NCBI GenBank assembly: GCA_945913025.1
Contig: CAMECJ010000001.1
Location: 310,001-374,000 of the forward strand
Source of the DNA: an uncultured Elusimicrobia bacterium
GTDB lineage: Bacteria > Elusimicrobiota > Elusimicrobia > Elusimicrobiales > Elusimicrobiaceae
Reading direction: 5' to 3'
Length of the DNA: 64,000 nt
The notes beneath the pieces were generated by a model. It saw only the letters and a list, made by a program, of their open reading frames with translations, was not told where the DNA came from and made no database searches. The number at the start of each line of letters is the position of its first letter. The stretch's first letter is position 1. A program made the position numbers and the translations under genes. Below are positions 9,408 to 39,165 of the stretch, piece by piece.

Positions 9408-9440
9408 ATTATACAGTAACTAAACGACAACATCTTGTCT
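9408..9440 (-). promoter_or_regulatory. Palindrome promoter, site 0 (ADP-ribosylglycohydrolase)
   Basis: CGACAA-CATC-TTGTCt at 9425-9440, 11 bp, then -10 TATAAT (9413-9408, minus strand). One mismatch in the arm. The palindrome overlaps the last codons of the upstream recombinase gene, so it is under two constraints. Same geometry as the five sites further right. Confidence 0.72.
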
Positions 9441-11054
9441 TTTTTCCCAAGCAGCTACTTGCTTTTCGAAAGAAACCTGACTCTCTGCCAAGGTCATCAG
9501 TTCTTTTAGGCTCATATTACGCGGATTTCTGTACTCTAAAATATCCGTTACTATCTTGGGCGACAGATAACACAGGTTCAAGTAGCGCGCGAAGGTACGT
9601 TTGTTCATACCGCTGGCCGCCTCGCATTCTCGCAGGGATTTCCCCTTTTCTAGCAGCCGTTTTAACTGCCACCCGCGGGATAAGCCGCGTACTAAACTCT
9701 CGTTTAGCTGCCGGACAGTTAAAATGTTCCGCGCCGTCCCATTTTGCAGTTTAACTGATGACACATTATCCACTACAAAACTATTTCTAACATATAACCT
9801 ACCGTCTAACTTTTCAGCGGATAGCGTCCGGCTTTCTGCCTGACCGGATATCCTCGGACAAGCACTTAAATCTGCCTTTATCTGCTTTTCATCAAGGAAA
9901 ATGCTTAAATAGTGGGTTTTATCCTCGCTTTGGCAAAACGCCTTAACAATCCATTTTTGCATTTGGGCGTCTGTCATTCCCTCTCTGTCTGCCAGCGGCT
10001 CCAAATCGGCAAAATCCGTCATTTTAAGCGTTTTTAGCACAAAACTATCCAGTTGCTCCGCAGGCAGATATCGCCCGCCTGCGCCATTGTAATAATAGAG
10101 GAACTTTTTCCCCTTCTTGTTTGACGAAGTTAACCGATAAGACCGTCCTTTATCATCATATAACTTGCCAGCGAGTACGGTTTGATGCGTTTGATAGTGG
10201 CTAAACGCATGCGGATTCGTAATCCGCCGCCGGACAGTATCTTGCACGGCTTCCCATACGCTTTTAGGCACAATTGATTTATGCCGCCCCATATAAACCT
10301 TATTTTTGGCGTGGTGGGCTATCTTGCCGATATATACGGGATTAGTCAAAATACGTTGGATACTGCTCTTTTGGAATGCCTTTCCGCCCCGCAGCTGACC
10401 TGCGCGCGGCACCCAGCACTTGGTATGATATCCGTTTTGGTTGAGCCACTCCGCCACCGCCAGCATATTTTCTAGTTCCAAATACTTATTAAAAATCAGA
10501 TTAACAAGTTCGGTTTCTTGTGGGTTTGGGATTAATTGCTTGTCTTTTAGGTCATACCCAAGCGGCGGGGTTCCGCCCATCCATAGCCCTTTGGCTTTAC
10601 TGGCCGCGATTTTATCCCGTACGCGCTCCGCTGATACCTCCCGTTCAAACTGGGCAAAGGATAGCAGCATATTGAGCGTCAGTTTCCCCATAGAGTTACT
10701 GGTATCAAACGATTGCGTAATGGACACAAAATTACATCCGTATTTATCAAACTCTTGCATCATTTTGTGGAAGTCTATAATAGAGCGCGAAAGGCGGTCC
10801 ACTTTATAGACCACCACTACCTGTACTTTGCAGGCGCGAACTTCTTCTAAAAGGGCCTGTAGTCCGGGGCGCTCCATGGTACCACCACTAATACCTCCAT
10901 CCGAATATGTTTTATAATATTCCCAGTTATTGAATGCTTGGGATAGAATATATGCTTTGCAGGCTTCTTCTTGGTTTTGGAGCGAGTTAAACTCCATATC
11001 TAGACCATGTTCCGTAGATTTACGGGTGTATATAGCACAATTAACTTTTGGCAT
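9420..11054 (-). CDS. Large serine recombinase 1
   Basis: A 544-aa site-specific recombinase. Resolvase catalytic domain at about 1-150: YTRKSTEHG carries the nucleophile Ser, and VVVYKVDRLSRS and the 'LLSFAQFEREVSAERVRDK' helix follow. The Recombinase domain (about 165-270, 'GGTPPLGYD') and a C-terminal DNA-binding region with a helix-turn-helix-like stretch (SLRECEAASGMNKRTFARYL) complete it. Start chosen at MPKVNCAIYTRKS; AGGAG lies about 13 nt upstream, rather far. It cuts and rejoins DNA at att sites to integrate or excise an element. A close paralogue lies at 39173-40795; their N-terminal halves are nearly identical while the C-terminal DNA-binding parts diverge, and a third copy survives as a scrap at 44.5 kb. 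Confidence 0.95.
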   Translation of the reverse strand: MPKVNCAIYTRKSTEHGLDMEFNSLQNQEEACKAYILSQAFNNWEYYKTYSDGGISGGTMERPGLQALLEEVRACKVQVVVVYKVDRLSRSIIDFHKMMQEFDKYGCNFVSITQSFDTSNSMGKLTLNMLLSFAQFEREVSAERVRDKIAASKAKGLWMGGTPPLGYDLKDKQLIPNPQETELVNLIFNKYLELENMLAVAEWLNQNGYHTKCWVPRAGQLRGGKAFQKSSIQRILTNPVYIGKIAHHAKNKVYMGRHKSIVPKSVWEAVQDTVRRRITNPHAFSHYQTHQTVLAGKLYDDKGRSYRLTSSNKKGKKFLYYYNGAGGRYLPAEQLDSFVLKTLKMTDFADLEPLADREGMTDAQMQKWIVKAFCQSEDKTHYLSIFLDEKQIKADLSACPRISGQAESRTLSAEKLDGRLYVRNSFVVDNVSSVKLQNGTARNILTVRQLNESLVRGLSRGWQLKRLLEKGKSLRECEAASGMNKRTFARYLNLCYLSPKIVTDILEYRNPRNMSLKELMTLAESQVSFEKQVAAWEKRQDVVV

Positions 11055-11055
11055 A

Positions 11056-11107
11056 TTTGTTATAATTCTCCTATACACAGTAATGCTTACTAATGGGAGA
11101 GAAGTCA
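11056..11107. repeat. Recombinase boundary repeat, copy 1
   Basis: The sequence 5' of recombinase 1 up to cttactaatgggagagaagtcaa is almost the same as that 5' of recombinase 2 (40797-40851). Similarity stops just before the divergent cargo gene. A third, shorter copy lies at about 12768-12797. Candidate att half site. Confidence 0.55.
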
Positions 11108-11108
11108 A

Positions 11109-11819
11109 ATGGTTAAATTACTATTAAAAGAAAAAACGCCAGAATTATTTAAAGCTCTAAAAAAAGCTCATGAAAAATTACTTAAGCAAACCCGCTATTC
11201 TAATGACAATATCTTATTAGAAAAAAACCTCAATAATCACCACGATTTGGAAAATGCTTATTTCAAAGCAATACTCATTAATGCATTTTATAGTACTAGA
11301 ATGGGCGCAGATTTGGTCTATCAAGCCGCGAAACACATTTGCAGACATAAAAAAAATATAGCGAAACTTATTGAAAAAAATGCTTTAGAAAGCAAAGATT
11401 TAGACTTTTTAGATAAATTTTGCCATAAGAAAATTTCTCGCGATAAATCAAATATAGAAAGTGAAGACTATAACCCATATTCATTTTTTACTAAGTACTT
11501 AGCTATACATGATCGAATTTTAAACAAGAAAGAATCAAAATTTCCCATATATGATACTTTAGTAGCAAAAACAATTAAATCTTCCGATTTGTTTGAAAGC
11601 AAATTTAACCTAAGGAACTATCACTCTTTATATAATACTCTACAAGAAATTGGTACCCCTTATGGTGGGCTGACATCTATAGACAATATCCTTTGGATAT
11701 TAGGAAGATTTATATTTCAGAACAAAGATAAAAAAGAAAAGCAAATTTCAAACTTCAATAAATATTTATCTCAAAATTCTATCGATAAACTAACTAAAGA
11801 CATTATTAATTCAAAGTAA
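11109..11819 (+). CDS. Recombinase-module cargo protein, paralogue of 35684-36430
   Basis: A 236-aa, helical, lysine-rich protein of unknown function. It shares blocks with the 248-aa protein at 35684-36430: AYFKAILINAFYSTRMGA, 'YSFFTKYLAIHDRIL', 'YDTLVAKTI', 'LRNYHSLYNTL' and 'TSIDNILWILGRFIF'. Those conserved Asn/Tyr/Arg residues suggest an active site or partner interface. No membrane segment. It is transcribed divergently from the serine recombinase and starts only 2-3 bp after the boundary repeat. Strikingly AT-rich compared with the recombinase, which suggests a separate origin. The paralogue follows a PD-(D/E)XK nuclease gene, so a defence role is plausible but not shown. Confidence 0.75.
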   Translation: MVKLLLKEKTPELFKALKKAHEKLLKQTRYSNDNILLEKNLNNHHDLENAYFKAILINAFYSTRMGADLVYQAAKHICRHKKNIAKLIEKNALESKDLDFLDKFCHKKISRDKSNIESEDYNPYSFFTKYLAIHDRILNKKESKFPIYDTLVAKTIKSSDLFESKFNLRNYHSLYNTLQEIGTPYGGLTSIDNILWILGRFIFQNKDKKEKQISNFNKYLSQNSIDKLTKDIINSK

Positions 11820-11821
11820 TA

Positions 11822-12253
11822 TTATCTCGTTAATCCAAAAAACTTGGGGCCACTAACATGACCCCGAGTTATCTTCTGCGCTATTGCCGTCAAATTAGGA
11901 TAGATATTATTCCCCCACTCGTATTCTTTCTCCCCTTTTACAGTAACTTGATATATTTTCCCCTTATACTTCTTGGTTAGGATAGTCCCTATTGCCAAGG
12001 AATACTTATTCTTATTCGCCCGCTGAATATATTTCTCTGGGTTACTGGCGTATTTATCCAGCCTAGTGATATATTTTTCAGCCAGTTTACATCTATACAA
12101 CTCGCATTGGATAGCATACCACAGAGGACGATATTTACCTTTCCTTCCTCTTAACGGATAACGGTAGAAGATATCCCAATAGAATTGGAGTTTCTCATCG
12201 GATAATCCTTTAAGTTCTTCAAAACTTTTAGACAAATAACACTTATTTCTCAT
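11822..12253 (-). CDS. DUF2924 protein
   Basis: A 143-aa protein. The C-terminal half shows the DUF2924 pattern: GTILTKKYKGKIYQVTV, a Gly-rich strand, then 'YPNLTAIAQKITRGHVSGP' ending KFFGL. DUF2924 genes are regular neighbours of serine recombinases in prophages and islands; their role is unknown, perhaps as an accessory or directionality factor (inference). Its start overlaps the end of the preceding DUF5681 gene by 11 bp, and that gene overlaps another DUF2924-like gene by 4 bp, so three genes form one operon running toward the cargo gene. A truncated near-copy lies at 41675-41966 beside recombinase 2. Confidence 0.82.
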   Translation of the reverse strand: MRNKCYLSKSFEELKGLSDEKLQFYWDIFYRYPLRGRKGKYRPLWYAIQCELYRCKLAEKYITRLDKYASNPEKYIQRANKNKYSLAIGTILTKKYKGKIYQVTVKGEKEYEWGNNIYPNLTAIAQKITRGHVSGPKFFGLTR

Positions 12254-12449
12254 TTAGCACCTTCCGAATACGGTTTAGTTTACGGACAGCTTGACCCTTA
12301 TCATAATAGGCTTTGGCTAATTCGTCAAAAAATTTTATGGCAAGGAGTAATAGCTCTGTATTGTGCAGTTTCTTGGGACGGCCGAGCGGATTGCCCGAAC
12401 GCCCCTTTACAAACCGCCCGGATATAGGTGGTAATTGACGTGGCGTCAT
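12243..12449 (-). CDS. Short DUF5681 protein, 68 aa
   Basis: The first 30 residues carry the DUF5681 motif (GRFVKGRSGNPLGRPKK); the rest is a single charged helical region. Overlaps its upstream neighbour by ATGA and its downstream neighbour by 11 bp. Much shorter than the 352-aa DUF5681 protein at 1860-2918, so it is either a minimal member or an N-terminal remnant. Confidence 0.65.
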   Translation of the reverse strand: MTPRQLPPISGRFVKGRSGNPLGRPKKLHNTELLLLAIKFFDELAKAYYDKGQAVRKLNRIRKVLNEK

Positions 12450-12715
12450 TTGGTAAGCCCAAAGAATACATAACCGCTGATTGGCCGTTTGACTATATCC
12501 ATAGCCACGCGGGAGATGCTTTTATAGACCTTGCCTTGGTATTCCAAGCCGTTTTCAAGCACTTTTACTTCAAGTGTTTGCCCGTGATAAGTTTTAGTGA
12601 TGACCGTGCCAACCGCAGGTAATCGGCTGTCGCGTTCTTTGGTTGGTAGAACGGACAAATCAACAGCATTTTGTTTGGCAATTTTTACAGCAGGTTGTTT
12701 AACTTTTCTCTTCAT
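12446..12715 (-). CDS. DUF2924 C-terminal domain protein, 89 aa
   Basis: Residues about 35-88 match the C-terminal half of DUF2924 (GTVITKTYHGQTLEVKV, then 'YKSISRVAMDIVKRPISG' and FFGL). The N-terminal part is a short basic segment and lacks the first half of the domain, so it is a minimal or truncated version. First gene of the three-gene operon; the second DUF2924 protein in the same operon suggests duplication. Confidence 0.68.
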   Translation of the reverse strand: MKRKVKQPAVKIAKQNAVDLSVLPTKERDSRLPAVGTVITKTYHGQTLEVKVLENGLEYQGKVYKSISRVAMDIVKRPISGYVFFGLTK

Positions 12716-12720
12716 AAAAA

Positions 12721-12800
12721 ACTCCCGATAGTATTTTGGTTTTAGTAGGGCTTTTTGGGCCCATCACTATTACCGCTTACTATCGGGAGGAAAGTCAAGT
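12721..12800. repeat. Inverted pair of the recombinase boundary repeat
   Basis: CTCCCGATAGTA near 12722-12734 and TACTATCGGGAG near 12778-12790 are a perfect 12-bp inverted repeat about 45 bp apart. The right arm continues (gaaagtcaag) as a third copy of the boundary found next to both recombinase genes. The size and imperfect dyad are what a serine-recombinase att site would look like. It separates the recombinase module from the restriction locus. Confidence 0.45.
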
Positions 12801-12820
12801 AGAACAACTTAATTCTCAAA

Positions 12821-15481: not shown

Positions 15482-15485
15482 AACA

Positions 15486-25107: not shown

Positions 25108-25788
25108 CTATAACTTTGTATCGATATGATTGATATAATCTAATTCGGCATTAAAACCATACTCATAATAATCTTCCCGGCGACCGGTGCCCAAATGGTG
25201 GCACAGGCACATTAGCCAAGGCCCGTAATCAGCATAAGCATCTTTAGTATACGTACGCCACACGCCAAACATCAAAAGCGGGTCTTTGAGGCACGCACCA
25301 TATTTACTCAAAAACACCAAAATACCATTGGGTGTTAATTTGTCCACAAATTGACGCGGTGCGCCTTCGGTAGGATTAGTTATATACTCTCCATTCTGCA
25401 TTTTGCCCATACACACAATGGTACCCATCACAGCCGGCACTCCCGTACAAGTATAAGTAGCCGTTCCCCAATCTCCATTTTCTATGGCTTTCATGGTACG
25501 CTCGTAAATTTGGTTAGCCAAATCAATCGGGCTATGGTTATAACAATTCATTTTATCCCAAAACACGTCCCCTTTTTTATCACTGCTATCACGCAGGAAT
25601 AACCACGCCGCCTCCCTCCTAGGCATCAGATAGCCCTTATTTAATTGGTAAGGACCGGATAACATACTATCTAGATCCTTTTCTGACACTTTACCCGCTT
25701 CATACAGAGCATCAAAAAGCACCTCCAATTGGACATTTTCGTCTTCAAAACTGCGTTTCCATATTTCAACCATTCCATATTGTTTCAT
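25108..25788 (-). CDS. Hypothetical protein of the palindrome regulon, 226 aa
   Basis: Not recognised. Soluble and Cys/His-containing: 'TYTCTGVPAVMGTIVCMGKM' in the middle and 'WLMCLCHHLGTGRREDYYEYG' near the C-terminus, so metal binding is possible. The N-terminal 60 residues look helical. GGAG lies 5 nt before the ATG. Expressed from the leftward half of the bidirectional palindrome promoter at 25.8 kb; it ends in a strong terminator, so it is monocistronic. Its 3' flank resembles that of the ADP-ribosylglycohydrolase gene, another regulon member. Confidence 0.8.
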   Translation of the reverse strand: MKQYGMVEIWKRSFEDENVQLEVLFDALYEAGKVSEKDLDSMLSGPYQLNKGYLMPRREAAWLFLRDSSDKKGDVFWDKMNCYNHSPIDLANQIYERTMKAIENGDWGTATYTCTGVPAVMGTIVCMGKMQNGEYITNPTEGAPRQFVDKLTPNGILVFLSKYGACLKDPLLMFGVWRTYTKDAYADYGPWLMCLCHHLGTGRREDYYEYGFNAELDYINHIDTKL

Positions 25789-25805: not shown

Positions 25806-25855
25806 AGGATATAACAGTCTCACGACAACCTGTTGTCGCGCCATTTTGCTATACT
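25806..25855. promoter_or_regulatory. Bidirectional palindrome promoter, site 1
   Basis: CGACAA-CCTG-TTGTCG at 25823-25838. Rightward: 11 bp then TATACT (25850-25855). Leftward: 11 bp then TATCCT (25811-25806). No -35 consensus; the palindrome occupies that place in both directions. Confidence 0.82.
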
Positions 25856-25862
25856 ATAATTA

Positions 25863-25984
25863 CCATAGAGAGTGTACGAGGGACAAGCCCGGTGACTACA
25901 CAGCAACCTGCCTAGGCAAGGTGCTAATGCTTGGAAGATGGGATTACCTCCATTAGACCCATCTTTACGATGGGTTTTCTTTTT
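25863..25984 (+). ncRNA. SAM-I-like (S-box) riboswitch with terminator
   Basis: Aptamer 25863-25941. P1 is CCAT/ATGG (25863-25866 with 25938-25941); then AGAG; P2 GTGT/ACAC plus GGG/CCC with the kink-turn GA; the GCAACC core; P3 CCTGCC/GGCAAGG (25907-25921); then GGTGCTAAT and AAGATGGG. These match the S-box core in order, though the usual P4 hairpin is missing. The 3' P1 strand AAGATGGG can instead pair with CCCATCTT (25958-25965); when P1 forms, CCCATC pairs with GATGGG (25958-25974) followed by TTTTCTTTTT. So SAM should switch transcription off. The promoter is palindrome site 1. Confidence 0.8.
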
Positions 25985-26019: not shown

Positions 26020-26496
26020 ATGAAAATAATTCTTAATAGTATGTATCAAAAGCGTTTTCCTTCGGAAATAAAAATAGATAAAGATGCCCAACTAGAAGTA
26101 TTTTTATTTAAATATCTTCACTTTAACAAAAAACTAATCACGCAGGAAGATTTCAAAAAAGCCTGTGGAAACAGTTTAAGAGGAATCAAATTCCCCACAG
26201 AGTTTAACTGCAAAATAAAATGGGCTTATATTCGGTGTTTGCATAGTTTCTTAGCTGAAAAGAAAGACGTCCGTTTCCTAGACAAGTTACGCAACGACTA
26301 TCCCGAATATTATAGAGCAACCGAACTTTATCTGAAGAAGTTTTATTATGGCATTATTAGACAGTTAGTAAAAGATTATCATACTAAACAAATGAGAAGA
26401 AAATATGCCGATATGATGATGTCCGGTTTAAGTCTGCTAGAAGATGCTGGGTTAAAACCGACTTTTGGCCCACAACAAACCACTAAAAATAAGTGA
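26020..26496 (+). CDS. Riboswitch-controlled hypothetical protein, 158 aa
   Basis: Unrecognised soluble protein, rich in Lys, Tyr and Phe and predicted helical; no signal peptide, membrane segment or Met-pathway motif is visible. AGAGGT lies 6 nt before the ATG. It is the only gene between the SAM-I-like riboswitch and the next regulon promoter, so it is what the riboswitch controls. S-box targets are normally methionine or SAM synthesis and transport genes, and this is none of those by sequence. It is also controlled by the palindrome promoter, so it would be made when the regulon is on and SAM is low. Confidence 0.78.
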   Translation: MKIILNSMYQKRFPSEIKIDKDAQLEVFLFKYLHFNKKLITQEDFKKACGNSLRGIKFPTEFNCKIKWAYIRCLHSFLAEKKDVRFLDKLRNDYPEYYRATELYLKKFYYGIIRQLVKDYHTKQMRRKYADMMMSGLSLLEDAGLKPTFGPQQTTKNK

Positions 26497-26513: not shown

Positions 26514-26549
26514 CTGCGACAATAGATTGTCGCAGTTGTTTTATATTCT
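26514..26549 (+). promoter_or_regulatory. Palindrome promoter, site 2 (ankyrin gene)
   Basis: A perfect 22-bp palindrome (26514-26535) containing CGACAA-TAGA-TTGTCG, then 11 bp from the arm to TATTCT (26544-26549). No leftward -10 at the matching distance, so it works in one direction only. Confidence 0.82.
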
Positions 26550-26578: not shown

Positions 26579-27292
26579 ATGCTTAAAATGACACTCGGCG
26601 AGGCTGTCAGCCAAAATTGTATGCGCGTGGTGCGTGAATATATTGAATCGGGCGCGGACCCAAATGCATCTGCGGACGGACTTGTTCCGCTGCGTGAAGC
26701 GTGTTTTAGTGAAAACATTCCCATGATTAAGTATTTGCTAGAACATGGGGCAAACCCGAATGGACGCGACCCGGACGATGATGAAACTGTGTTGGAATCG
26801 TATATCCACCACTGTTATAAGCGTGTTAATACAGCGGTATTGCGCCGGTTATTGCGTGCAGGAGCGAACCCAAATCTACGCAAAGCCAAAGAACTACGTC
26901 CCATGTTTCATTGGGCCATTTTTAACAATATAAAACGACTGGTTTCTATCTTATTGGAATATGGTGCGGATGTAAACCAACGTGGAAAAGTGCACGACGG
27001 AGAGACTCCGCTGATGACTGCAGCTTATTTTGCCGATATTTCTATTATGGAAATGCTCCTCAAGCACGGTGCAGATGTCAACGCACGAGATGGAAGCGGA
27101 TGTAATGCCTTATTCTATGTTGTTATGGGCGATTGTCCGTGGCAAGAAATACTGCCGCGGTTTAAGTTGCTTTTCAAGTATAGCATTGATTTGCACGCAC
27201 AGGAAAAACACGGCAAAAACATTTTACAGTATGGTTTTCGTTTGAATAATGCCACAAAACGTTGGCTTCGCAAGCACGGAGTTAAAGAATAA
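26579..27292 (+). CDS. Ankyrin-repeat protein
   Basis: A 237-aa protein of about six ankyrin repeats filling nearly the whole length; typical repeat hallmarks are VREYIESGADPNA, 'IKYLLEHGANPNG', 'LRRLLRAGANPNL', 'VSILLEYGADVNQ' and 'MEMLLKHGADVNARD'. There is no signal peptide, so it acts in the cytoplasm, probably as a protein-binding scaffold. AAGGAG precedes the ATG by 7 nt. It has its own palindrome promoter and stands alone. Ankyrin proteins appear in several antiphage and toxin-associated loci, but the partner cannot be named from sequence. Confidence 0.92.
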   Translation: MLKMTLGEAVSQNCMRVVREYIESGADPNASADGLVPLREACFSENIPMIKYLLEHGANPNGRDPDDDETVLESYIHHCYKRVNTAVLRRLLRAGANPNLRKAKELRPMFHWAIFNNIKRLVSILLEYGADVNQRGKVHDGETPLMTAAYFADISIMEMLLKHGADVNARDGSGCNALFYVVMGDCPWQEILPRFKLLFKYSIDLHAQEKHGKNILQYGFRLNNATKRWLRKHGVKE

Positions 27293-28107: not shown

Positions 28108-28896
28108 CTACTCCTTTTGCTCCTTTTCTGCCGGTGTAATTTCGTATGTACCCATATTACGATCAAACAAAATATAGTCCTTATAAAAGGATTTCGCATT
28201 TTTAAGCATTAAGAATAACTGTTCCTTTTCCTTTACCCCTTTCGTGTTTTTTTCCCACATCACAATCCCTAAATACGATGACAAATACTCAGGTCGTACG
28301 ATTTGGTTAGGGTGATATAAACTTTCAAACAACACGGGCACATCCTTCGGCATCTGCACGAATAGCAACAGCGCTACATTTTGTTCACGCGCTTGACTCC
28401 ACAATGCTTCAGCACTTTCCTGCCACTCCGATAATGTCATGTCCTTGACGCACACAACGGGATTCGAATTAGCTGGCACGGAATCACCTGTTTCCCATGT
28501 TAGTGGGTAGAGGGCAAGCTCCTTAAGTGCAACTCGCAAATCATCATAATCTGCTCTATTAAGATCGCGGTGAAAGTAGAGTTGTGCTTTGTTTATCTTG
28601 CTTTGCAGACAGAGCAACTCTACTGTGTCGGCATCAAAAGACTTTCCGCCCTCTAGCACATGTACAGGCACTCCATTTTTTATCAGTTGCCACAGTAAAT
28701 TTCTGCGCCATAACCGCAAAGCTATTTCATCTTTGCTACCAAAGAAACTATAACATTCCCCTGGCATAAAACTTCCCCAGACCGATGCCAAATTATCATA
28801 GGGAATGCGCAACCCAGTAACACAAGGTTTTTCTTCGTGCTGAAGATGGTCTAAAATAGTGGCAAACCGCTTAGATTGTTCTTTCATTGTTATCAT
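28108..28896 (-). CDS. Hypothetical protein in AAA+ operon, degenerate P-loop-like
   Basis: A 262-aa protein of unknown function. The stretch PGECYSFFGSKD, a helix, then GVPVHVLEGGKSF has the strand-loop-helix-strand layout of RecA/KaiC-type ATPases, but the Walker A Gly-Lys-Thr/Ser is absent, so I infer a non-hydrolysing relative. 'VALLLFVQMPKDVPVLFE' would be the Walker B strand equivalent. GAGGAG lies 5 nt before the ATG; the gene begins 10 bp after the stop of the tandem AAA+ gene and is followed 3 bp later by its own paralogue. The pair probably acts with that ATPase. Confidence 0.78.
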   Translation of the reverse strand: MITMKEQSKRFATILDHLQHEEKPCVTGLRIPYDNLASVWGSFMPGECYSFFGSKDEIALRLWRRNLLWQLIKNGVPVHVLEGGKSFDADTVELLCLQSKINKAQLYFHRDLNRADYDDLRVALKELALYPLTWETGDSVPANSNPVVCVKDMTLSEWQESAEALWSQAREQNVALLLFVQMPKDVPVLFESLYHPNQIVRPEYLSSYLGIVMWEKNTKGVKEKEQLFLMLKNAKSFYKDYILFDRNMGTYEITPAEKEQKE

Positions 28897-30951: not shown

Positions 30952-30984
30952 AGTGTAGAAAACCCGTGCGACAGCACCACGTCG
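30952..30984 (-). promoter_or_regulatory. Palindrome promoter, site 3 (AAA+ operon)
   Basis: CGAC-N8-GTCG at 30969-30984 within the longer arms GTGCGAC/GTCGCAC (30966-30987); 11 bp on the leftward side, then TACACT (30957-30952). Inner arm bases differ from the other sites but spacing is identical. Confidence 0.78.
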
Positions 30985-31726: not shown

Positions 31727-32445
31727 CCTTTGAAAATGTCTTTATTATCTTTTTGGTGTTCCCAAAACACTTTTAAATCTTCGACAGCGTTTTGATTATC
31801 TTTTAATTTTTCTTGCCAAAACTTATTGATTCCTTCTGCAATTGCTTTGAAATCTTCTGGGCTAATAAAATCACTCTTGGCATTATTACAAATATAGCAT
31901 GCTAATTTGCAATTATCTGCATTATATATATTTTTATTTTCTGGAAAAGTTTCAAGGCGTTCTACTTCCAAATTAAACCCTCTTCCACGATCATATGCTT
32001 TTTTTGTTTGCCCATTTTCATCTGGTGTATACTCTTTAAAGTAACGTTGTGCATCTTTCTCGCGAACACCACAATAACAACATGTTTTTTCTTCTTTAAA
32101 ATACCAATCCACAAATGCTTTTTTACCAATTTTGAAACAATTATCAAATTTGTTTTTTTCTTCTTGTTTCAATGTATCATATAGATTTTTTTGTTTCGCT
32201 TCTTTGCTCGGGACATATCTAGTCCACCCGCCAAAACCCACTCTGCGAGCTTTATTGTTAAGCAAATTTTTGACGTGCTTAATTTCTTCTTGAATATCTT
32301 TATCCTGGCAACATTCATTATATATATCCTCAAATTCCTTTTTTAGCTTTTGCTCATTGGTAGTCCCATCTGTTGTCTTATCTTTCCAATAGTCCGTACC
32401 TAGTACCGATGCTTTAATAAATTCTATTTCTCTCTCATTCATCAT
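31723..32445 (-). CDS. HNH endonuclease
   Basis: A 240-aa protein. The HNH/zinc-finger core occupies about residues 120-195: CCYCGVRE (first Cys pair), then 'NLEVERLETFPENK', 'YNADNCKLACYICNNAKSD' with the second Cys pair and the Asn; the general base is less clear. N-terminal region helical and charged. Its start overlaps the end of the deiminase gene by 11 bp and its stop overlaps the next gene, so it is translationally coupled on both sides. It probably cuts DNA in a restriction- or abortive-type response under palindrome site 4. Confidence 0.86.
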   Translation of the reverse strand: MMNEREIEFIKASVLGTDYWKDKTTDGTTNEQKLKKEFEDIYNECCQDKDIQEEIKHVKNLLNNKARRVGFGGWTRYVPSKEAKQKNLYDTLKQEEKNKFDNCFKIGKKAFVDWYFKEEKTCCYCGVREKDAQRYFKEYTPDENGQTKKAYDRGRGFNLEVERLETFPENKNIYNADNCKLACYICNNAKSDFISPEDFKAIAEGINKFWQEKLKDNQNAVEDLKVFWEHQKDNKDIFKG

Positions 32446-33295
32446 ATTCCCTCGTTAAACAATGTACGGCACCGCCGTACTGAGATATTTGCTCGCAATC
32501 CACGCGCACAAGAGGCTTGCGGGTGTGCTTTTTCATTATGTTAACAATTTCGTCGTCTTCGGGCAAATTAAATTGCGGAATAAAAACAGCCTGCGAAGTT
32601 TCCAAAAAATTCACGTAAAGGCCTTTGGCACTTAACCAGTTGTTTTCGTCTATCCGGCATAACAAAGGCACCGTCTTAAAATGATGAAAACTAGCTAACA
32701 AATTGCTAGATTTATCATCAAGCAACGTGTCCAGGGCAATATCTCCGTCAAAAATGTTTGTCGCGCCCTCCATTAAAAAATCACCTAAAAACTGGATATA
32801 CCCGTCCATATGGCCAATTTTATCGCCTTTTTGTTGGGGTAGCCATAGGATTTCCTGCACGCCGAGCGCACGCTTTAATTCTTGTTCCACACGTCCCTTT
32901 TGCGCAGGGTTTGATTTATGGAAAATCGCTTGTTTTTCCAAGCAAAATGCCTGTTTCTTGTCAGGGGACAGCACGATATTTCCCCCGTCTATACGCACAT
33001 TACACGGTTTAACACGCGGGAAAGCACCCCGTACCTGTTCGCGGATAGCATCCGTAAATTTAGGCGTGTAATTAGCATAGCGCGGATCAAAAAATTGCTG
33101 ATACAACTCTCCGGTTTGTACGTTTTGCACAGGCAAAAAATCGCGCACCCATATATCGGGCAATTCCAACGAGCGCACCTCGTGATATTGCTTTAACTGC
33201 GACACAAAATGCTCATAAAATTTGGCGTGGCCGGGATATGTCTGCTCTGTGTACCAAGTGGGTTTAGCTATATAAATTACTTCATTTTTGGTCAT
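32435..33295 (-). CDS. Agmatine deiminase / peptidyl-arginine deiminase family protein
   Basis: A 286-aa guanidine-modifying hydrolase. Visible family motifs: DIWVRDFLPVQ, 'VRIDGGNIVLSPD', 'GHMDGYIQF' and the C-terminal catalytic region QYGGAVHCLT with the nucleophile Cys. It is about 60-80 residues shorter than usual agmatine deiminases. Start ATG 33295 (MTKNEVIYI) follows GGTGG. It may act on agmatine, on arginine residues or on another guanidine. Finding it in an operon with an HNH nuclease is unusual; it may be a metabolic passenger or a signal-modifying enzyme. Confidence 0.88.
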   Translation of the reverse strand: MTKNEVIYIAKPTWYTEQTYPGHAKFYEHFVSQLKQYHEVRSLELPDIWVRDFLPVQNVQTGELYQQFFDPRYANYTPKFTDAIREQVRGAFPRVKPCNVRIDGGNIVLSPDKKQAFCLEKQAIFHKSNPAQKGRVEQELKRALGVQEILWLPQQKGDKIGHMDGYIQFLGDFLMEGATNIFDGDIALDTLLDDKSSNLLASFHHFKTVPLLCRIDENNWLSAKGLYVNFLETSQAVFIPQFNLPEDDEIVNIMKKHTRKPLVRVDCEQISQYGGAVHCLTREYDE

Positions 33296-33722
33296 GTATC
33301 CACCGCCAAAACAGCTCTTTTTTATGCTCGGCTGCAATAATCACGCGGTTGTTGGGCCAGTAATATTCCAAGTCCATAACAGCCACCGCATCTATTACGC
33401 TACGCGGCATGAGATATTCGCTCCCCATTACCCGCACTAGCAAATCCAAATCAACTAACTCCTGCCACGCCACCTCATGTTTCAAATACAGCGTTGGCAC
33501 ATTGAGGTCCTTTTCCAGTTGCGAAATGAACAACGGCTGGGGTTTTAACTGGTACACATAGTAATAACTAAATACCAGTTTGGCTACATCGGACAAAGGC
33601 GGCAAAAAACTGTCTAATTCCGCAAGCGCTTTCTTTACCTCCGGTTGTTCCAGCGCCGCAAGACCGTCTTGTTCCACGCCGTCCAAGATAGCGTCAAAAT
33701 ACCTAAACAGACTAAACGTCAT
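33282..33722 (-). CDS. Hypothetical protein, first gene of the deiminase operon
   Basis: A 146-aa soluble, helical protein of unknown family. ATG 33722 (MTFSLFRYF) has GGAG 6 nt upstream; the longer frame would run through the promoter palindrome and is rejected. Aromatic-rich middle ('LVFSYYYVYQLKPQPLF') and an acidic N-terminus. Overlaps the deiminase start by 14 bp. Driven by the leftward half of site 4. Confidence 0.72.
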   Translation of the reverse strand: MTFSLFRYFDAILDGVEQDGLAALEQPEVKKALAELDSFLPPLSDVAKLVFSYYYVYQLKPQPLFISQLEKDLNVPTLYLKHEVAWQELVDLDLLVRVMGSEYLMPRSVIDAVAVMDLEYYWPNNRVIIAAEHKKELFWRWIHDQK

Positions 33723-33755
33723 AATCAACTCCATTTCCTTATTTGTCATAGGACT

Positions 33756-33805
33756 AGGATAACAAACTCTTGCGACAACATCTTGTCGCCCCGATGTGCT
33801 ATACT
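33756..33805. promoter_or_regulatory. Bidirectional palindrome promoter, site 4 (WYL regulator and deiminase operon)
   Basis: CGACAA-CATC-TTGTCG at 33773-33788 (GCGACAA/TTGTCGC arms). Rightward 11 bp then TATACT (33800-33805), about 18 bp before the WYL start; leftward 11 bp then TATCCT (33761-33756). The regulator gene's own promoter carries the palindrome, as expected for autoregulation. Confidence 0.85.
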
Positions 33806-33822
33806 TTTTGTAAGAGGTAACT

Positions 33823-34743
33823 ATGCAAAAAGAAATGCACAACAAACTAACACGTCTTTTGTATGAACTTAACGCCCTAGATAAAGGGCAAATCCGCTTA
33901 AAAGATATGGCGGTGGAAACCGGTGTAGCGGTGCGCACCATTCAGCGGGATATGAACGATATTCAAGAGGCCGATTTCCCGCTTTGGAACCCTGATCCCG
34001 GCGTATATGCCTTTATAGAAGGGTTTTCGCTAGAGCGCATGAAACTCTCCAGCGCGGAGGCCTCTATTTTGGTACTCATGAGTGATATGGCATCCTCGCT
34101 AGGCGGCAATTTCGGGCACTCGTTTGCCATGCTTAAAAACCGCCTATTAGCCACTCCGCAGGATAACCCATTCTTTATCAAAATGAATAGCGGAGAAATG
34201 TATAAAGATACCCCCATTACACGTACGCTGGAAGAATGCGTACGCGGACGTGAATATGTGAATATATGCTACAAAGGCGGGAGCATGGCGTGTTACCCTG
34301 TGCGACCATTAAAGTTAATGTGGGTAGACGGGTTTTGGTATCTTTTAGCTTTTACAAATGACGACAAACTCTTAAAATTCCGCTTGGAAAAGATTACCTC
34401 TGCCAAAGCCCTAAACAAACCCTTCAAATATAATAAAAATATTGATAAAATCTTGCGAGAAAGTACAAACATATGGTTTGAAAAAGACCGCCCCTTATCG
34501 GTGCAGTTAGAAGTATCGGCCGAGTGCGCGCATTTCTTTAAACAAAAGAACTATTTTCCGTTGCAAAAGCTAGAAAAGGAGCTCAAAGACGGGCGCATCG
34601 TCCTCTCGTGCAAAGCCGCCAAAGAGAACGAAATTTTGCCCACCATTTTGCATTGGTTACCGCATATTAAGGTGCTATCCCCCGCCACATTACACACGCG
34701 GGTAAAAGACGTATTAAACGATTATTTAAGGAGTGTAAAATGA
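33823..34743 (+). CDS. WYL-domain transcription regulator, likely master of the palindrome regulon
   Basis: A 306-aa protein. Residues about 5-60 form a DeoR/HTH_11-type helix-turn-helix (MAVETGVAVRTIQRDMNDI); the WYL domain follows at about 140-215 with 'YPVRPLKLMWVDGFWYLLAF', then a C-terminal WCX-like domain to the end. WYL regulators bind nucleotide or nucleic-acid ligands and control many CRISPR, BREX and other defence loci. AGAGGT lies 6 nt before the ATG. The gene is divergent from the deiminase operon across site 4. Binding to the palindrome is inferred from position, repeat symmetry (these proteins dimerise) and the lack of another regulator in this block. Confidence 0.93.
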   Translation: MQKEMHNKLTRLLYELNALDKGQIRLKDMAVETGVAVRTIQRDMNDIQEADFPLWNPDPGVYAFIEGFSLERMKLSSAEASILVLMSDMASSLGGNFGHSFAMLKNRLLATPQDNPFFIKMNSGEMYKDTPITRTLEECVRGREYVNICYKGGSMACYPVRPLKLMWVDGFWYLLAFTNDDKLLKFRLEKITSAKALNKPFKYNKNIDKILRESTNIWFEKDRPLSVQLEVSAECAHFFKQKNYFPLQKLEKELKDGRIVLSCKAAKENEILPTILHWLPHIKVLSPATLHTRVKDVLNDYLRSVK

Positions 34744-34943
34744 AGAAAATTTACTTAATTTTGGCCTTAATGATTGCCGCCGGAGTGGGATATAGTGCGG
34801 CACAAATTCAAATTAAAATGGAACAAGTTAAAACAATTACCCAATATGCCAGAGCGAATATCGCCCGCTACGATTTAGGCGATACAGAATGCTTTGTGGA
34901 ATCGACGAGCCACAGTATGTTCTGCATGATGAAATCAAATTAG
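34740..34943 (+). CDS. Small exported or membrane-anchored protein, 67 aa
   Basis: Start overlaps the WYL stop as ATGA, so translation is coupled. N-terminal signal-like segment (MKKIYLILALMIAAGVGYSA) with a possible cleavage after Ala; the remaining about 45 residues hold two Cys. Function unknown. Coupling to the regulator suggests that it is part of the response or senses the envelope. Confidence 0.65.
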   Translation: MKKIYLILALMIAAGVGYSAAQIQIKMEQVKTITQYARANIARYDLGDTECFVESTSHSMFCMMKSN

Positions 34944-34990
34944 TAATATATTTTATAATTAAAACAGATTAGAATTTAAAAGGAAAAGAT

Positions 34991-35635
34991 ATGAAACAAG
35001 AAAAAGCTATCTTTGAATTAAAAAATAATGTTAAAAAAGCATATAATAAAGAATTAAATATTATAAAAAAATTAGAAAAAACGAATCGCATTTTCCGTGG
35101 GCATGTTTCCTCTATGAGTTCAATTGTAGAAGATGCAATTGCCAAATTTATTCTCAAAGTCACTTCCTCAAAATGGAAAATTTTTTTAGACTCATCAGTA
35201 TCTATTAAACTTGATCAAAAAAGAGCAAAAACCTTTCGACCAGACATGCTTTTGCTTGATGAAAGGGAAAATGTAAAAGCAGTTTTCGAAATCAAAACAA
35301 GTATGGGATACTATCGTGATGCAACTGAAGTTATAGACAAGTTGATCGATATGCACACGGCGTTTGTTAAAGAACACAACCTCAACTGTTCCTTCTCACG
35401 AAAAGGTAAACAAAAATCCTTACACAAAGAGGCTAAATATCAGAAAAACGTGAAGTGTTTTATCATCACTTATTCTGATAACGCTTGCGATGAAAATTAT
35501 CACAAACAAAACAAAAAAAATGCGAGGAAAAAAGGAATTGAACATTTTGTGCTCTTTAAAGGCTGGTATGATGAAGCTGAAATACGTCACGATGATATTT
35601 CAGCCTTTATAAAACAATTGAAACAATTAAAATAA
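34991..35635 (+). CDS. PD-(D/E)XK-type nuclease
   Basis: A 214-aa protein. RPDMLLLDERENVKAVFEIK carries Asp...Glu-x-Lys of the PD-(D/E)XK fold at about residues 81-100; upstream 'SSIVEDAIAKF' supplies the usual helix with the conserved Glu. Very basic and AT-rich. AAAAGGAAAAG before the ATG. 49 bp later begins a 248-aa protein with the same composition, so they likely form a two-gene operon. Type II restriction-like or nickase activity is possible, but no cognate methyltransferase is adjacent. Confidence 0.78.
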   Translation: MKQEKAIFELKNNVKKAYNKELNIIKKLEKTNRIFRGHVSSMSSIVEDAIAKFILKVTSSKWKIFLDSSVSIKLDQKRAKTFRPDMLLLDERENVKAVFEIKTSMGYYRDATEVIDKLIDMHTAFVKEHNLNCSFSRKGKQKSLHKEAKYQKNVKCFIITYSDNACDENYHKQNKKNARKKGIEHFVLFKGWYDEAEIRHDDISAFIKQLKQLK

Positions 35636-35683
35636 AAATCTGATAATACCATTCACAATAAATTTAAACGAAAAGGAAAAGTT

Positions 35684-36430
35684 ATGAAAAGAGAATCTCT
35701 TAAATTAAATACTAAAACATTTAATTCTATATTAGAGATGCGTGAAAGATTAGCCCAGAAAAGCAATTTAAATCGCTACGACTATGATGAAAGATTGTTG
35801 AAAGAATATATAAAGCCGCCCTTGCTTGAAAACCATAATCTGGAATCCGCATATTTTAAAGCAACGCTGATAAATTCTTTCTATAGTACAAGAATGGGTG
35901 CGGAAACGCTATTTAAAGTGGCAAAGAAAATTGAGATTTATAAAGACAAAATTAACGATATTTTGTTTTCAAGACATGTCGTCCAAGAGCAACTAAACTC
36001 CCTAAATCCTTTTACAGAAATTAAGGTGGAGCGTGGTGAAGATTCGTATGGTCCTTATTCTTTTTTAACGAAATATTTGGCCATTCATGATCGTTTATTA
36101 TGCTATCACCATTCACAACATAAACAAGAATATTCTAGATTGCCAATATACGATCAGTTAGTTAGTCGATGTATTGTTAATTTGGAAAATAAAAAGCAGT
36201 TAGAAGCCACTCATAATAACTTGAGGAATTATCAAAATTTGTATAGGATTATCTCTCAAATAGCCCAAATGATGAATTATGGAGACAATCTAACTTCTGT
36301 CGATAATGTTTTTTGGGCAATTGGAAAATATCTATGGGGTAATAATAAGGCCAAATCCATTAAAGAATTTAATGAAGAAGCGATGGCTGGAAAGATTATA
36401 AAAAACATGGAGGAATCTTTGTCGTTATAG
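35684..36430 (+). CDS. Partner of the PD-(D/E)XK nuclease, paralogue of the cargo protein at 11109
   Basis: A 248-aa protein of unknown function sharing conserved blocks with the protein at 11109-11819: SAYFKATLINSFYSTRMGAE, 'YSFLTKYLAIHDRLL', 'YDQLVSRCI', 'LRNYQNLYRI', 'TSVDNVFWAIGKY'. It has no membrane segment. It follows a nuclease gene here and stands alone beside recombinase 1 in the other copy, so it can work without the nuclease or with one elsewhere. AAAAGGAAAAG precedes the ATG. I infer a defence or toxin-type role. Confidence 0.75.
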   Translation: MKRESLKLNTKTFNSILEMRERLAQKSNLNRYDYDERLLKEYIKPPLLENHNLESAYFKATLINSFYSTRMGAETLFKVAKKIEIYKDKINDILFSRHVVQEQLNSLNPFTEIKVERGEDSYGPYSFLTKYLAIHDRLLCYHHSQHKQEYSRLPIYDQLVSRCIVNLENKKQLEATHNNLRNYQNLYRIISQIAQMMNYGDNLTSVDNVFWAIGKYLWGNNKAKSIKEFNEEAMAGKIIKNMEESLSL

Positions 36431-36448
36431 TCTGGCAAAGAGATGAAG

Positions 36449-37918
36449 CTATTCGCTCACGCTGTTCCTTAGTACATCTACAATTTTAACCATCGCCCAT
36501 GTGTCTTGCTCACAGTATTTGAGTAAATCTTTGCGTAGTTGCTCTAACTCGGCAGGTGGCAGTTTTTGCACGTATAACACGTCAAAGGCATCCATAGCGT
36601 CCCCACCGTTGGCAACGGCCATGCCTTCGTAGCTCATTTCGGGTACGAGTGCGGGTAAAACCTTTTTAATAGACCAACTACAGTGCATTTTGGGGTGTAA
36701 ATAATCCTGTTTAAAAGGATCGCCAGTATCCATAAAGCGTTCCGTCATGTCCAACAGGCGTTTAGCATCCTTTTCGGGGATGGGTAAATCGTGCGCCATC
36801 TCTTTCATGCGCGTCTTCTCAAAAGCCGCATTGTGTGCCAATATAGTGCCACTATTGCCGATATATTTAAGTAATGCCTCTACACACCCATAGCGTGGGT
36901 CTTCCTTGCCCGTAGAAAGATACTCATAATGTTCAAACTTGCCGTTTGGCTCGCGTTGCACATGCAAAGAAAATTGGAACGGGATCTGCTGATAGGGCCG
37001 CGAGTATTTCCATAAGGGAACAACGGGTTGCGTCGTCTCAAAATCCAAATAATAAAGCGGGTACTCCAGTTTATTAAGCCACGCGGCCACCGCCGCATGG
37101 TCAATATAGGTCTTACCCGTGCGTAATACCTCTACCCAACGGTTATATTTTTCATTATCAAAACTATTCGGCGGCAAATCGGCTATGCGCAAAATCCCTT
37201 GCGCCATAAACTTGCGCGCCCGATTGCCGCGTAACAACGCAAACACGGAATCTTGCGGAATATCTTTCCAACAATAGTCGTGACATTCACAATCAGCACA
37301 CCCGCTTTTATCCAGTTCGACCGTCGGTTCAGTACCCACGAGTAATTTCTTAATATCCTCTAAATTTTCTTCAATATCTTCATCCGAGGAAAGTTCGCTA
37401 TCCATCGGGGTTAAAAGAAAAAGCTGTTGTAAGTCCGGCTCATCCGTTTCCATAAAATAGTCGCTATTTATGTGCATTAAATAACAATGCTCCGGCGAAA
37501 CCCCACAATGCGTAAGCACATAGCGTTGGATAGAGATGTCGTCCACATAAATTGGATCAATTTCGCGCCCGCTACTTTTTACTTCCACTAAATTCCACCC
37601 GGTAGGCGTTTTTTCCAAAATATCCACAAATACCAAAATACTGTTATAGGCAAAAGCGGCCTCATAGATCGCCGGTACCCCTTGCGCCATGAGTTCCTGC
37701 GTGCGTTTAATGGCCTCTTGCGGGTTTTTGGGTCCGTCTTTGACAAGTACCCCACCCGGGAAGCGCTTCCATGCAAGTTCGCCGATAAAGTGCCCTCTAT
37801 CAAAAATTTTTTGCTGGGCAGCATCTGGCGGCGTTAGCACCTCTTTTTTATTGCGGTACAGCCACAAGCGTTTGGGGCAACTGCGGTATTTTGTGTATTG
37901 TGATTTGGATAAATTCAT
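36449..37918 (-). CDS. DUF2779 protein with Cas4-like nuclease domain
   Basis: A 489-aa protein. The N-terminal half resembles Cas4/RecB-type PD-(D/E)XK nucleases: 'YTKYRSCPKRLWLYRN' at the start, 'WNLVEVKSSG' with the catalytic Glu/Lys, and a Cys cluster 'SGCADCECHDYCW' that could hold an Fe-S cluster. The C-terminal DUF2779 half shows RNase H/exonuclease-like residues ('LYYLDFETTQ', 'AHNAAFEKTRM', 'YCEQDTWAM'). Start ATG 37918 follows GAGG by 5 nt; a GTG two codons earlier is less likely. Probably the last gene of the site 5 operon. Confidence 0.9.
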   Translation of the reverse strand: MNLSKSQYTKYRSCPKRLWLYRNKKEVLTPPDAAQQKIFDRGHFIGELAWKRFPGGVLVKDGPKNPQEAIKRTQELMAQGVPAIYEAAFAYNSILVFVDILEKTPTGWNLVEVKSSGREIDPIYVDDISIQRYVLTHCGVSPEHCYLMHINSDYFMETDEPDLQQLFLLTPMDSELSSDEDIEENLEDIKKLLVGTEPTVELDKSGCADCECHDYCWKDIPQDSVFALLRGNRARKFMAQGILRIADLPPNSFDNEKYNRWVEVLRTGKTYIDHAAVAAWLNKLEYPLYYLDFETTQPVVPLWKYSRPYQQIPFQFSLHVQREPNGKFEHYEYLSTGKEDPRYGCVEALLKYIGNSGTILAHNAAFEKTRMKEMAHDLPIPEKDAKRLLDMTERFMDTGDPFKQDYLHPKMHCSWSIKKVLPALVPEMSYEGMAVANGGDAMDAFDVLYVQKLPPAELEQLRKDLLKYCEQDTWAMVKIVDVLRNSVSE

Positions 37919-37946
37919 ACGCACCTCTTAAAGTTATGATAGCACA

Positions 37947-38255
37947 TCAAAAGGCCCAAAACATAATGCTAAGGAGTTTGCCGTCTTTGTCGTACAAATC
38001 GCACGAATACGCCAAATCTCGCTTGGTACGCTCTAGTAGTTCTTCGCCATCTTTGGCAAACAAGTGCGAAACGCCTTTTTCATCTGTTTTGGAAATAATT
38101 TCAAAATAAACATAGCCACGATCGGTAACGTAGGTACCGCCCCATACTACTTTATCCCAAGGAATCCCTTTATCAATCATCCCCTGTGTGCCACCACAAG
38201 CATTGATAAGATCGTTAAAACGCTGCATATTGCCTTTAATTGATTCAAATTTCAT
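37947..38255 (-). CDS. Hypothetical protein, 102 aa
   Basis: Starts at MKFESIKGN with GGAGG 9 nt upstream; overlaps the end of the preceding gene by 11 bp. Its C-terminal 'DLYDKDGKLLSIMFWAF' echoes the 'NLYDKKGNVVSKAF' at the end of that neighbour, suggesting a shared domain. No function recognised. Confidence 0.68.
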   Translation of the reverse strand: MKFESIKGNMQRFNDLINACGGTQGMIDKGIPWDKVVWGGTYVTDRGYVYFEIISKTDEKGVSHLFAKDGEELLERTKRDLAYSCDLYDKDGKLLSIMFWAF

Positions 38256-38940
38256 ACTCGTCATCCTCCTCTGTATTGTAATCAAATGCTTTGCTAACCA
38301 CATTGCCTTTTTTATCGTACAAATTCCACCAAGTTACTACCGTTTTTACAGACATGATGTGTTTGATCCTAAACTCGGTTACTTCCAGTTTATCTTCTCC
38401 CACTTGCTTAACAGTATACTTTTTATTAATGGCCTCATCTTTGGCATATTTTACATTGGCCCAATCTATGGGATGTTTCAGCACAAACGGCTGCTTGTCC
38501 TCTTCGTCCCACTTGGCTTCTAACTTTTTGTGATGTTCACGCCAAAGCATATCTTCCACAAAAAACGCTTCACAACGGGGCAGGTAATCCTCGTCCAAAT
38601 GGTGATTTAATGCGCACTTTTTAAGGTCATTCCAATAGTCATCCTCGGTATATCCCCTGTAGCCAATCCAGGATATTTCCGGTTCCTCATCATAATAAAA
38701 GCGGTTCTCCGCACGGTTCCAATGACGGTAATCATAAATAGAAATCCCGAAACGTACACCTAAAATAGTTACCTCTATGCTTGGGCCGGCATGGTCCGTA
38801 TGGCGAGACCATTCAAACTCTATTTCAAAGGCCTCACAACCAAAATACGCAATTTGCATATCCAGAGCCTTATATTTCATGCCCAAAAAATGGTGGATAA
38901 CCTTACTCCAATTGATTTTTTCAACATACTTCCAAAACAT
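38245..38940 (-). CDS. Hypothetical protein, 231 aa
   Basis: Start ATG 38940 (MFWKYVEKINW) follows AGGAG by 5 nt. Soluble, Trp/Tyr/Glu-rich, beta-rich middle (ITILGVRFGISIYDYRH is close to the pattern) and a C-terminal repeat of the motif shared with the 102-aa neighbour. It lies 44 bp after a zinc-ribbon gene. Unrecognised; possibly a nucleic-acid or protein-binding module. Confidence 0.72.
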   Translation of the reverse strand: MFWKYVEKINWSKVIHHFLGMKYKALDMQIAYFGCEAFEIEFEWSRHTDHAGPSIEVTILGVRFGISIYDYRHWNRAENRFYYDEEPEISWIGYRGYTEDDYWNDLKKCALNHHLDEDYLPRCEAFFVEDMLWREHHKKLEAKWDEEDKQPFVLKHPIDWANVKYAKDEAINKKYTVKQVGEDKLEVTEFRIKHIMSVKTVVTWWNLYDKKGNVVSKAFDYNTEEDDEYEI

Positions 38941-38984
38941 AACTACTCCTAGCCCCGGCCACCGTGATGACCGGGGCATCTACT

Positions 38985-39098
38985 TTACCCTCTACGATAG
39001 AGTGGCCCACCGCAAGACGGGCATTTCATCCCGGCAGGCGGAAAGGTAAACGTAAACATCTGTCGGCATTTGCTACATTCGTATTTTTGTTCAGCCAT
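38985..39098 (-). CDS. 37-aa zinc-ribbon protein
   Basis: Too short for most callers but convincing: ATG 39098 has AGGAG 7 nt upstream, and the peptide has two Cys pairs (CSKC near residue 8, CPSC near residue 26) on a rubredoxin-type ribbon (FTFTFPPAGMKCPSCGG). First gene behind palindrome site 5. Could be a regulator or partner of the nuclease products downstream. Confidence 0.7.
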   Translation of the reverse strand: MAEQKYECSKCRQMFTFTFPPAGMKCPSCGGPLYRRG

Positions 39099-39132
39099 AG
39101 TTGTTCTCCTATCTAGTTTTTACTACACCTAT

Positions 39133-39165
39133 AGGATAATAAACCCGCGCGACAACACTATGTCG
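39133..39165 (-). promoter_or_regulatory. Palindrome promoter, site 5 (zinc-ribbon/DUF2779 operon)
   Basis: CGACAA-CACT-ATGTCG at 39150-39165, 11 bp leftward, then TATCCT (39138-39133). The start of the first gene is 35 bp further. It lies 7 bp from the end of recombinase 2, as site 0 lies at the end of recombinase 1. Confidence 0.82.

Follow-up and report, generated by a model that had tools for sequence, protein, structure and literature searches.

Palindromes at a fixed distance from the -10 box point to a probable WYL-activator regulon in Elusimicrobiota

How do several promoters within one stretch of bacterial DNA come to share the same palindrome at the same distance from the -10 box, and which protein reads it? 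The question is raised by a 64,000-nt segment of the genome of an uncultured Elusimicrobia bacterium (assembly GCA_945913025.1, contig CAMECJ010000001.1, positions 310,001 to 374,000), here called the window. It carries six such palindromes and, beside one of them, a gene for a transcription factor with WYL and WCX domains (Table 1). We consider it likely that a DriD/PafBC-like homodimeric factor of winged helix-turn-helix (HTH), WYL and WCX domains, encoded by this gene and its paralogs, uses the palindromes as activator sites, and that they serve a DNA-damage/defence regulon. The reading was built from features of the sequences, namely the sites, their spacing, the missing -35 box, the targets, conservation, co-occurrence with WYL genes and clade-specific spacing.

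All six palindromes were located where the first-pass annotation of the window had placed them. Five match CGAC-N8-GTCG exactly and the one at 9425 has a single mismatch; the expected number of exact matches in the window was 0.23, and at least five were reached in none of 100 shuffles. The same annotation had described eight promoter directions in which exactly 11 nt separate the palindrome from the -10 box, and TAnnnT was present at that distance in all eight (sequences in Table 1). The remaining four directions at the six palindromes had no TAnnnT at +11. With the -10 box set by convention at -12 to -7, the window palindrome covers -39 to -24 and its centre falls at -31.5, in agreement with the earlier estimate and in the zone that sigma would contact at a promoter with a -35 box. 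The lack of a -35 box was also confirmed. The best TTGACA match averaged 1.6 of 6 positions over 64 promoters of the window's own family, compared to 2.4 in shuffled spacers, and 2.2 of 6 over 85 promoters of a sister family, compared to 2.3, and thus did not exceed the shuffled level in either.

Spacing was then evaluated on DNA not selected by the motif, using ten loci for which the WYL gene had been the criterion of choice. TAnnnT stood at exactly +11 in 31 of 46 palindrome flanks, versus about one expected from a background of 0.020 per position; the loci are mutually related, so that these flanks are not independent. When the window was included, the count was 38 of 56, with the runner-up offset, 13, reaching 10. 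The assertion that such fixed geometry exceeds chance was therefore upheld. Across the window's genome, the strict palindrome CGACA-N6-TGTCG was enriched (13 sites versus 2 in the control), and each of the 13 was flanked at +11 by a -10 box on one side or both. Sister-family genome G112 contained 39 strict palindromes versus 2 in the control, 34 of them with a -10 box at +11.

Matches to the half-site pattern TTGTCG-N11-TAnnnT numbered 33 in the window's genome, 38 in G112 and 23 in sister-family genome G086, versus 19, 6 and 4 in the respective controls. By hand count, about 12, 20 and about 12 of these were non-palindromic, which still exceeded the control in G112 and G086. All 20 non-palindromic matches of G112 fell within open frames of at least 208 residues, and CGAC was found at the distal place in only one. 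Promoters with a single half-site of the PafBC type are thus unsupported in G112, and since the half-site-only matches there all lie inside open frames, it is the full palindrome that marks promoters.

A search of 294 Elusimicrobiota genomes for the exact pattern GACA-N6-TGTCG-N11-TAnnnT returned 916 sites in 105 genomes. The reversed control pattern gave about 38 (hand count), and consequently single sites in distant families are often due to chance. In the sister family, 43 of 46 genomes had sites, with 2-54 per genome. The regulon first described from the window is therefore real but not local to it, as it extends through the genome and the order and includes recA and repair genes in the sister family. 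Motif and WYL relatives co-occurred across the 294 genomes (both 80, motif only 25, WYL only 16, neither 173; Fisher's test, p = 3e-33, a test that, here and below, ignores the relatedness of genomes). The association held without the sister family (both 42, motif only 20, WYL only 16, neither 170; p = 2e-19) and within the window's genus (both 24, motif only 3, WYL only 11, neither 20; p = 4e-5), and so it is not just a property of one family. Relatives of the WYL protein were found in genomes labelled uncultured Elusimicrobium, Elusimicrobiales or Elusimicrobia, one being labelled only uncultured bacterium. The motif lay 46-175 nt upstream and in the same direction in 9 of 10 related WYL genes; the tenth has a site facing away.

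Operator spacing followed the WYL clade in a tree of 71 proteins (one short row was left out). The clade that includes the window protein comprises 19 rows (support 99/100), and a site with the N8 separation was found within 1.4 kb of the gene in 19/19 cases. A second clade (11 rows, support 100/100) had CGAC-N9-GTCG sites in 8 of 11, with the -10 box again at +11; for one of the three rows without a site, the available upstream DNA amounts to just 42 nt. No row had both types. Near the third WYL paralog encoded in the window's genome, on contig C12, stands CGACAA-N5-TTGTCG, one base wider, with -10 boxes at +11 on both sides. The N9 class stood beside the same paralog in related genomes, according to a scan of 21 chosen genomes. 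The N9-clade regions were picked once the N9 list was known, and members without a near site were included. Half-sites separated by 7, as in DriD, were absent from the four sets of loci scanned. A near site was lacking in 37 of the 71 rows, including the main sister-family WYL proteins, which would fit constitutive expression of the kind reported for PafBC. The first-pass annotation had named the WYL protein as the likely regulator, and adjacency, co-occurrence and the match between operator spacing and clade all favour this assignment.

The 306-aa protein of the window exceeded the Pfam cut-offs for WYL and WCX. A paralog additionally came just short of the cut-off for HTH_11 (23.1 bits versus 25). 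Its best PDB sequence matches were to DriD (E = 6e-5), PafC standing lower in the list. Fold comparison, informative only for the WYL-WCX part, placed the DriD C-domain at the top (Z 15.2, rmsd 4.6, 182 aligned). Most of 36 aligned rows, from both families, share R-T/S-x-Q-R-D in the recognition region of the HTH. R187 and K190 are invariant in ten aligned sequences of the window clade, at the place of the R-x-x-R pair of SiwR, and may contact single-stranded DNA (ssDNA). The neighbouring frames at 33282-33941 and 34991-35635 had no Pfam match, which speaks against a PafBC-like heterodimer from two WYL genes; other WYL genes are present in the genome.

From these features, binding, dimerisation, activation and an ssDNA signal are predicted as follows. 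Each half-site (CGACA/TGTCG) would be read by the HTH of one subunit, and the dimer would lie over the zone in which sigma would otherwise read the -35 box. The promoter-proximal half-site, fixed 11 bp before the -10 box, would allow the dimer to recruit housekeeping RNA polymerase to promoters that have no -35 box. The symmetry of the site would let a single dimer drive both directions, which would account for divergent promoters. The signal sensed by the WYL domain would most likely be ssDNA arising from DNA damage or phage attack.

The targets bear on the type of regulon. In the sister family, 85 sites in three genomes led to 82 first genes, and Pfam families were counted on 78 of them (4 short doubtful frames were left out). 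These included RecA (3), SSB (2), RadC (2), a RecQ, RecB/AddA-like and AddB-like proteins and an SbcD-like nuclease, several of the "-like" labels lying below curated cut-offs. Others were Y1 transposases (5), DNA methylases (4), YhcG nucleases (4), ORF6N (4) and RhuM (3). Because recA and other repair genes are included, the regulon is of the DNA-damage type. Two motif-driven RecD2/PIF1-like helicases, in G112 and G086 (L131:5391-7037 and L152:352-1959), have a WYL domain near the C-terminus. In the window's genome, further motif targets were a second WYL gene, a type I restriction-modification operon (contig C20), a PD-(D/E)XK nuclease, an AbiEii-type protein and a second AAA gene. An AddAB-like operon (UvrD-helicase and PD-(D/E)XK proteins) lies behind a motif with the weaker -10 box CATAAT, and the other targets belong to no known family. 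Two apparent broken copies were also seen in this genome, a motif-driven start on contig C6 that no open frame follows (L058:7605-8330) and a WYL remnant with two stops (contig C4:55-690).

The recA gene was surveyed in 30 hand-chosen genomes, with one recA each and distances measured to a script-chosen start codon. The motif was found 67-96 nt before recA in 13 of 18 sister-family genomes, and in none of the 7 genomes from the window's family or the 5 other genomes. The sister-family genomes without it were G030, G082, G106, G175 and G225, of which G106 lacks the motif altogether and encodes three LexA proteins that score above the cut-off. The LexA DNA-binding model had no match in 10 of the 13 genomes with the recA motif. 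Neither PF01726 nor TIGR00498 was matched in G112 and G086, two genomes with a listed completeness of 100% that carry 35 and 22 sites, recA included. LexA was not lost everywhere, since many genomes of genus g10 keep a LexA-like protein below the curated cut-off, and other motif-bearing genomes also have LexA-like proteins. In genome G057 (C20:32708-34388), a LexA-like gene stands divergently beside a recA whose promoter has the WYL motif, a possible case of double control. The window contains a LexA-like protein of its own (S24 peptidase and HTH; 3064-3696), and another is encoded on contig C2 of the same genome.

Most likely, the regulon is a defence/island programme in the window's genome and has taken in core repair genes in the sister family. 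A wider, joint proposition appears evenly balanced between true and false. It holds that in one Elusimicrobiota family a WYL activator replaced LexA in the control of recA, ssb, radC, recQ, addAB-like genes and many mobile and defence genes, some genomes being without LexA; that duplicated WYL regulators are kept apart by the half-site gap (8 or 9; 7 in DriD) at a constant half-site plus 11 bp; and that PafBC, DriD and these proteins share an ancestral promoter geometry.

Several observations weigh against the motif or against its reading as a damage regulon activated by the WYL protein. The loose form CGAC-N8-GTCG was not enriched across the window's genome (20 sites versus 41 in the control), and the claim was therefore moved to CGACA-N6-TGTCG. 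The first-pass annotation had counted a spread of the motif without the -10 spacing against its own proposal; the strict form passed this test, but the loose form was not enriched. Similarly, genome-wide GAC-N9-GTCG-N11-TAnnnT was not above the control, and the N9 case rests on sites beside WYL genes. DriD itself has a half-site separation of 7 versus 8 or 9 here. The targets in the window's genome are mostly of the defence type or of no known function, and its recA, considered as a target, was rejected as it has no motif. This genome has a LexA-like protein just below the curated cut-off. A WYL relative without the exact motif was found in 16 genomes, and the co-occurrence tests take no account of relatedness. 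As regards the protein, the AlphaFold model has pLDDT under 50 for residues 1-126, so that its HTH part is poor and only the C-terminal part usable, and a lysine takes the place of the second arginine in the WYL pair.

Were the WYL protein a repressor of the BrxR/CapW kind, the palindrome would block RNA polymerase until a signal releases it, and autoregulation by repressors is common. Several window targets are defence-like, BrxR and CapW were also among the fold-comparison matches, and there are known WYL repressors with a link to immune systems (PMC11804915). However, without a recognisable -35 box the promoters would be weak once the repressor leaves, repression does not require 11-bp phasing, and the closest relative in both sequence and fold is the activator DriD, the protein also having a WCX domain. 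The first-pass annotation had left activation and steric repression side by side; of the two, activation from a site over the -35 region is much more probable, and repression is disfavoured and in our estimate unlikely. Slightly less probable again is that another regulator binds the palindromes, WYL genes being frequent passengers of the same islands. WYL rows without a near site would be explained in this way, as would some motif-only genomes. Nine of the 25 were scanned with the Pfam WYL model, which found the domain in three (G086, G030, G290) and, as a further point against the WYL protein, had no match in six (G225, G275, G014, G147, G153, G171; 2-9 sites each). For these six, another regulator, a divergent WYL protein or missing contigs are possible. 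A passenger role is difficult to reconcile with two WYL clades that track two spacings, with half-sites and an 11-nt distance that are those of DriD, and with co-occurrence that persists outside the sister family. An alternative sigma factor using the palindrome as an unusual -35 element would account for the absent -35 box and the constant spacing to the -10 box. A -35 element is directional, yet the sites have two-fold symmetry and several of them serve a promoter on either side; moreover, the -10 box is an ordinary TAnnnT and a sigma-70-type -35 would need a longer gap than 11 bp, which makes this reading very improbable.

Table 1. Predicted promoters, their genes and the associated riboswitch in the window (window coordinates)
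Feature	Coordinates	Strand	Details
WYL-type promoter 1	9408-9440	-	palindrome 9425-9440, one mismatch; -10 TATAAT 9408-9413
ADP-ribosylglycohydrolase (PF03747)	8535-9401	-	target of promoter 1; Pfam
Divergent WYL-type promoters 2a/2b	25806-25855		palindrome 25823-25838; -10 TATCCT (-) 25806-25811, TATACT (+) 25850-25855
226-aa protein	25108-25788	-	target of 2a; no Pfam family
SAM riboswitch	25860-25976	+	in leader of 2b; 55.3 bits, cut-off 44.4
158-aa protein	26020-26496	+	target of 2b, after riboswitch; no Pfam family
WYL-type promoter 3	26517-26549	+	palindrome 26517-26532; -10 TATTCT
Ankyrin-repeat protein	26579-27292	+	target of promoter 3
WYL-type promoter 4	30952-30984	-	palindrome 30969-30984; -10 TACACT
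AAA ATPase, 670 aa	28907-30919	-	target of promoter 4; distant relative of IetA anti-phage ATPase
262-aa protein	28108-28896	-	probable operon partner of AAA gene; no Pfam family
Divergent WYL-type promoters 5a/5b	33756-33805		palindrome 33773-33788; -10 TATCCT (-), TATACT (+)
146-aa protein	33282-33722	-	behind promoter 5a; no Pfam family
Peptidyl-arginine/agmatine deiminase-type enzyme (PF04371)	32435-33337	-	probable operon member of 5a
WYL-WCX transcription factor, 306 aa	33823-34743	+	on promoter 5b; proposed regulator
WYL-type promoter 6	39133-39165	-	palindrome 39150-39165; -10 TATCCT
244-aa protein	38245-38979	-	first gene of promoter 6; no Pfam family
118-aa protein	37947-38303	-	probable operon member of promoter 6
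DUF2779 / Cas4-like nuclease-type protein	36449-37924	-	probable operon member of promoter 6

Homologs of several genes in Table 1 were found behind the motif as well. It was present upstream in 9/9 homologs found for the AAA gene, in the single homolog found for the ankyrin gene (locus L047) and in one of the three found for the 226-aa gene (also L047). Homologs of the 118-aa gene lie behind the motif in loci L046 and L048, with none within the scanned span in L047 and L058, and a distant homolog of the DUF2779 gene immediately follows a motif in genome G045 (L165). PADLOC, run on ten window proteins, matched only the AAA protein (IetA-like) and the DUF2779 protein (Cas4-like). The HNH and zinc-ribbon labels given to the small operon genes in the first-pass annotation lack Pfam support; an HNH protein is encoded at 40864-41685, outside the operons. 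Since the SAM riboswitch sits between a WYL-type promoter and the 158-aa gene, this gene may be under WYL-type activation plus SAM control. The 146-aa protein has a homolog (L058:9912-10154; 47% over 51 residues) encoded divergently beside the second WYL gene. This small family, divergent to both WYL genes with N8 sites in the genome, is possibly a partner of the regulator. A large serine recombinase gene (39173-40849) adjoins promoter 6, which suggests that the window cluster is or was a mobile island.

The regulon bears on how LexA-less bacteria run their DNA-damage response and on how WYL activators recruit polymerase. It is of phylum scale and offers hundreds of natural promoters, including a natural experiment in which paralogous regulators have operators differing by one base pair of spacing. 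The promoter motif also provides a route to functionally uncharacterised genes for defence and repair in the phylum. A literature search over titles and abstracts, with most subscription journals and bioRxiv outside its coverage, found no work on WYL regulation in Elusimicrobiota among the papers listed. The regulon described in the first-pass annotation is real, and its geometry has precedents in PafBC and DriD promoters.

The mycobacterial RecA-NDp motif tTGTCRgtg-8 nt-TannnT is equivalent to TTGTCR-N11-TAnnnT (PMC5656591), and for PafBC a mechanism of sigma adaptation is described in which a -26 motif mediates promoter binding (PMC11804915). The DriD consensus is given as ATACGAC(X)7GTCGTAT, a site that overlaps the -35 region at a constant distance to the -10 box (PMC12340889). 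Three DriD promoters printed in that paper, when measured, had G(T/G)CG-N11 before the -10 box, with G at -14 as stated there. As PafBC/RecA-NDp, DriD and Elusimicrobiota sites all have N11, three lineages share the 11-nt distance, and one 11-bp geometry is common to PafBC, DriD and a third lineage. The mechanism of DriD is nevertheless described as distinct from that of PafBC (PMC12340889). Further literature used for comparison was PMC6789036, PMC10693628 and PMC7739468.

DriD of Caulobacter crescentus is the closest counterpart, with the same WYL-WCX layout, CGAC/GTCG half-sites, a site over the -35 region, 11 nt to the -10 box and a DNA-damage role, in addition to being the best PDB sequence and fold match. 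In contrast to its regulon, described as small, up to 54 sites per genome were found here, with recA among the targets and some genomes without detectable LexA, and several Elusimicrobiota sites are bidirectional. PafBC/RecA-NDp promoters share the proximal half-site and its distance, WYL proteins and DNA repair targets. However, PafBC consists of two different proteins that bind as a heterodimer to a motif without palindromic symmetry, with constitutive expression reported, whereas here one gene is associated with a palindrome; a partner encoded elsewhere is possible. SiwR of Mycobacterium smegmatis is likewise a homodimeric WYL activator responding to genotoxic stress through an imperfect palindrome, the homodimer being predicted in our case; its 19-bp site lies between -35 and -10, and it controls two adjacent genes. 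BrxR and CapW resemble the window protein as WYL regulators among defence-type genes but are repressors. Repressors of this type need an operator over a complete promoter with a -35 box, unlike the -35-less promoters found here, and the closest relative of the window protein is DriD. The sister-family regulon includes recA, ssb and recombination genes, as does the LexA SOS response, but has another operator and activator-type promoters, and LexA matches are absent from G112 and G086. The finding is a variant of the WYL-activator regulon, surprising in that no LexA was detected in some genomes with the repair regulon and in that the operator spacing tracks the clade of the regulator.

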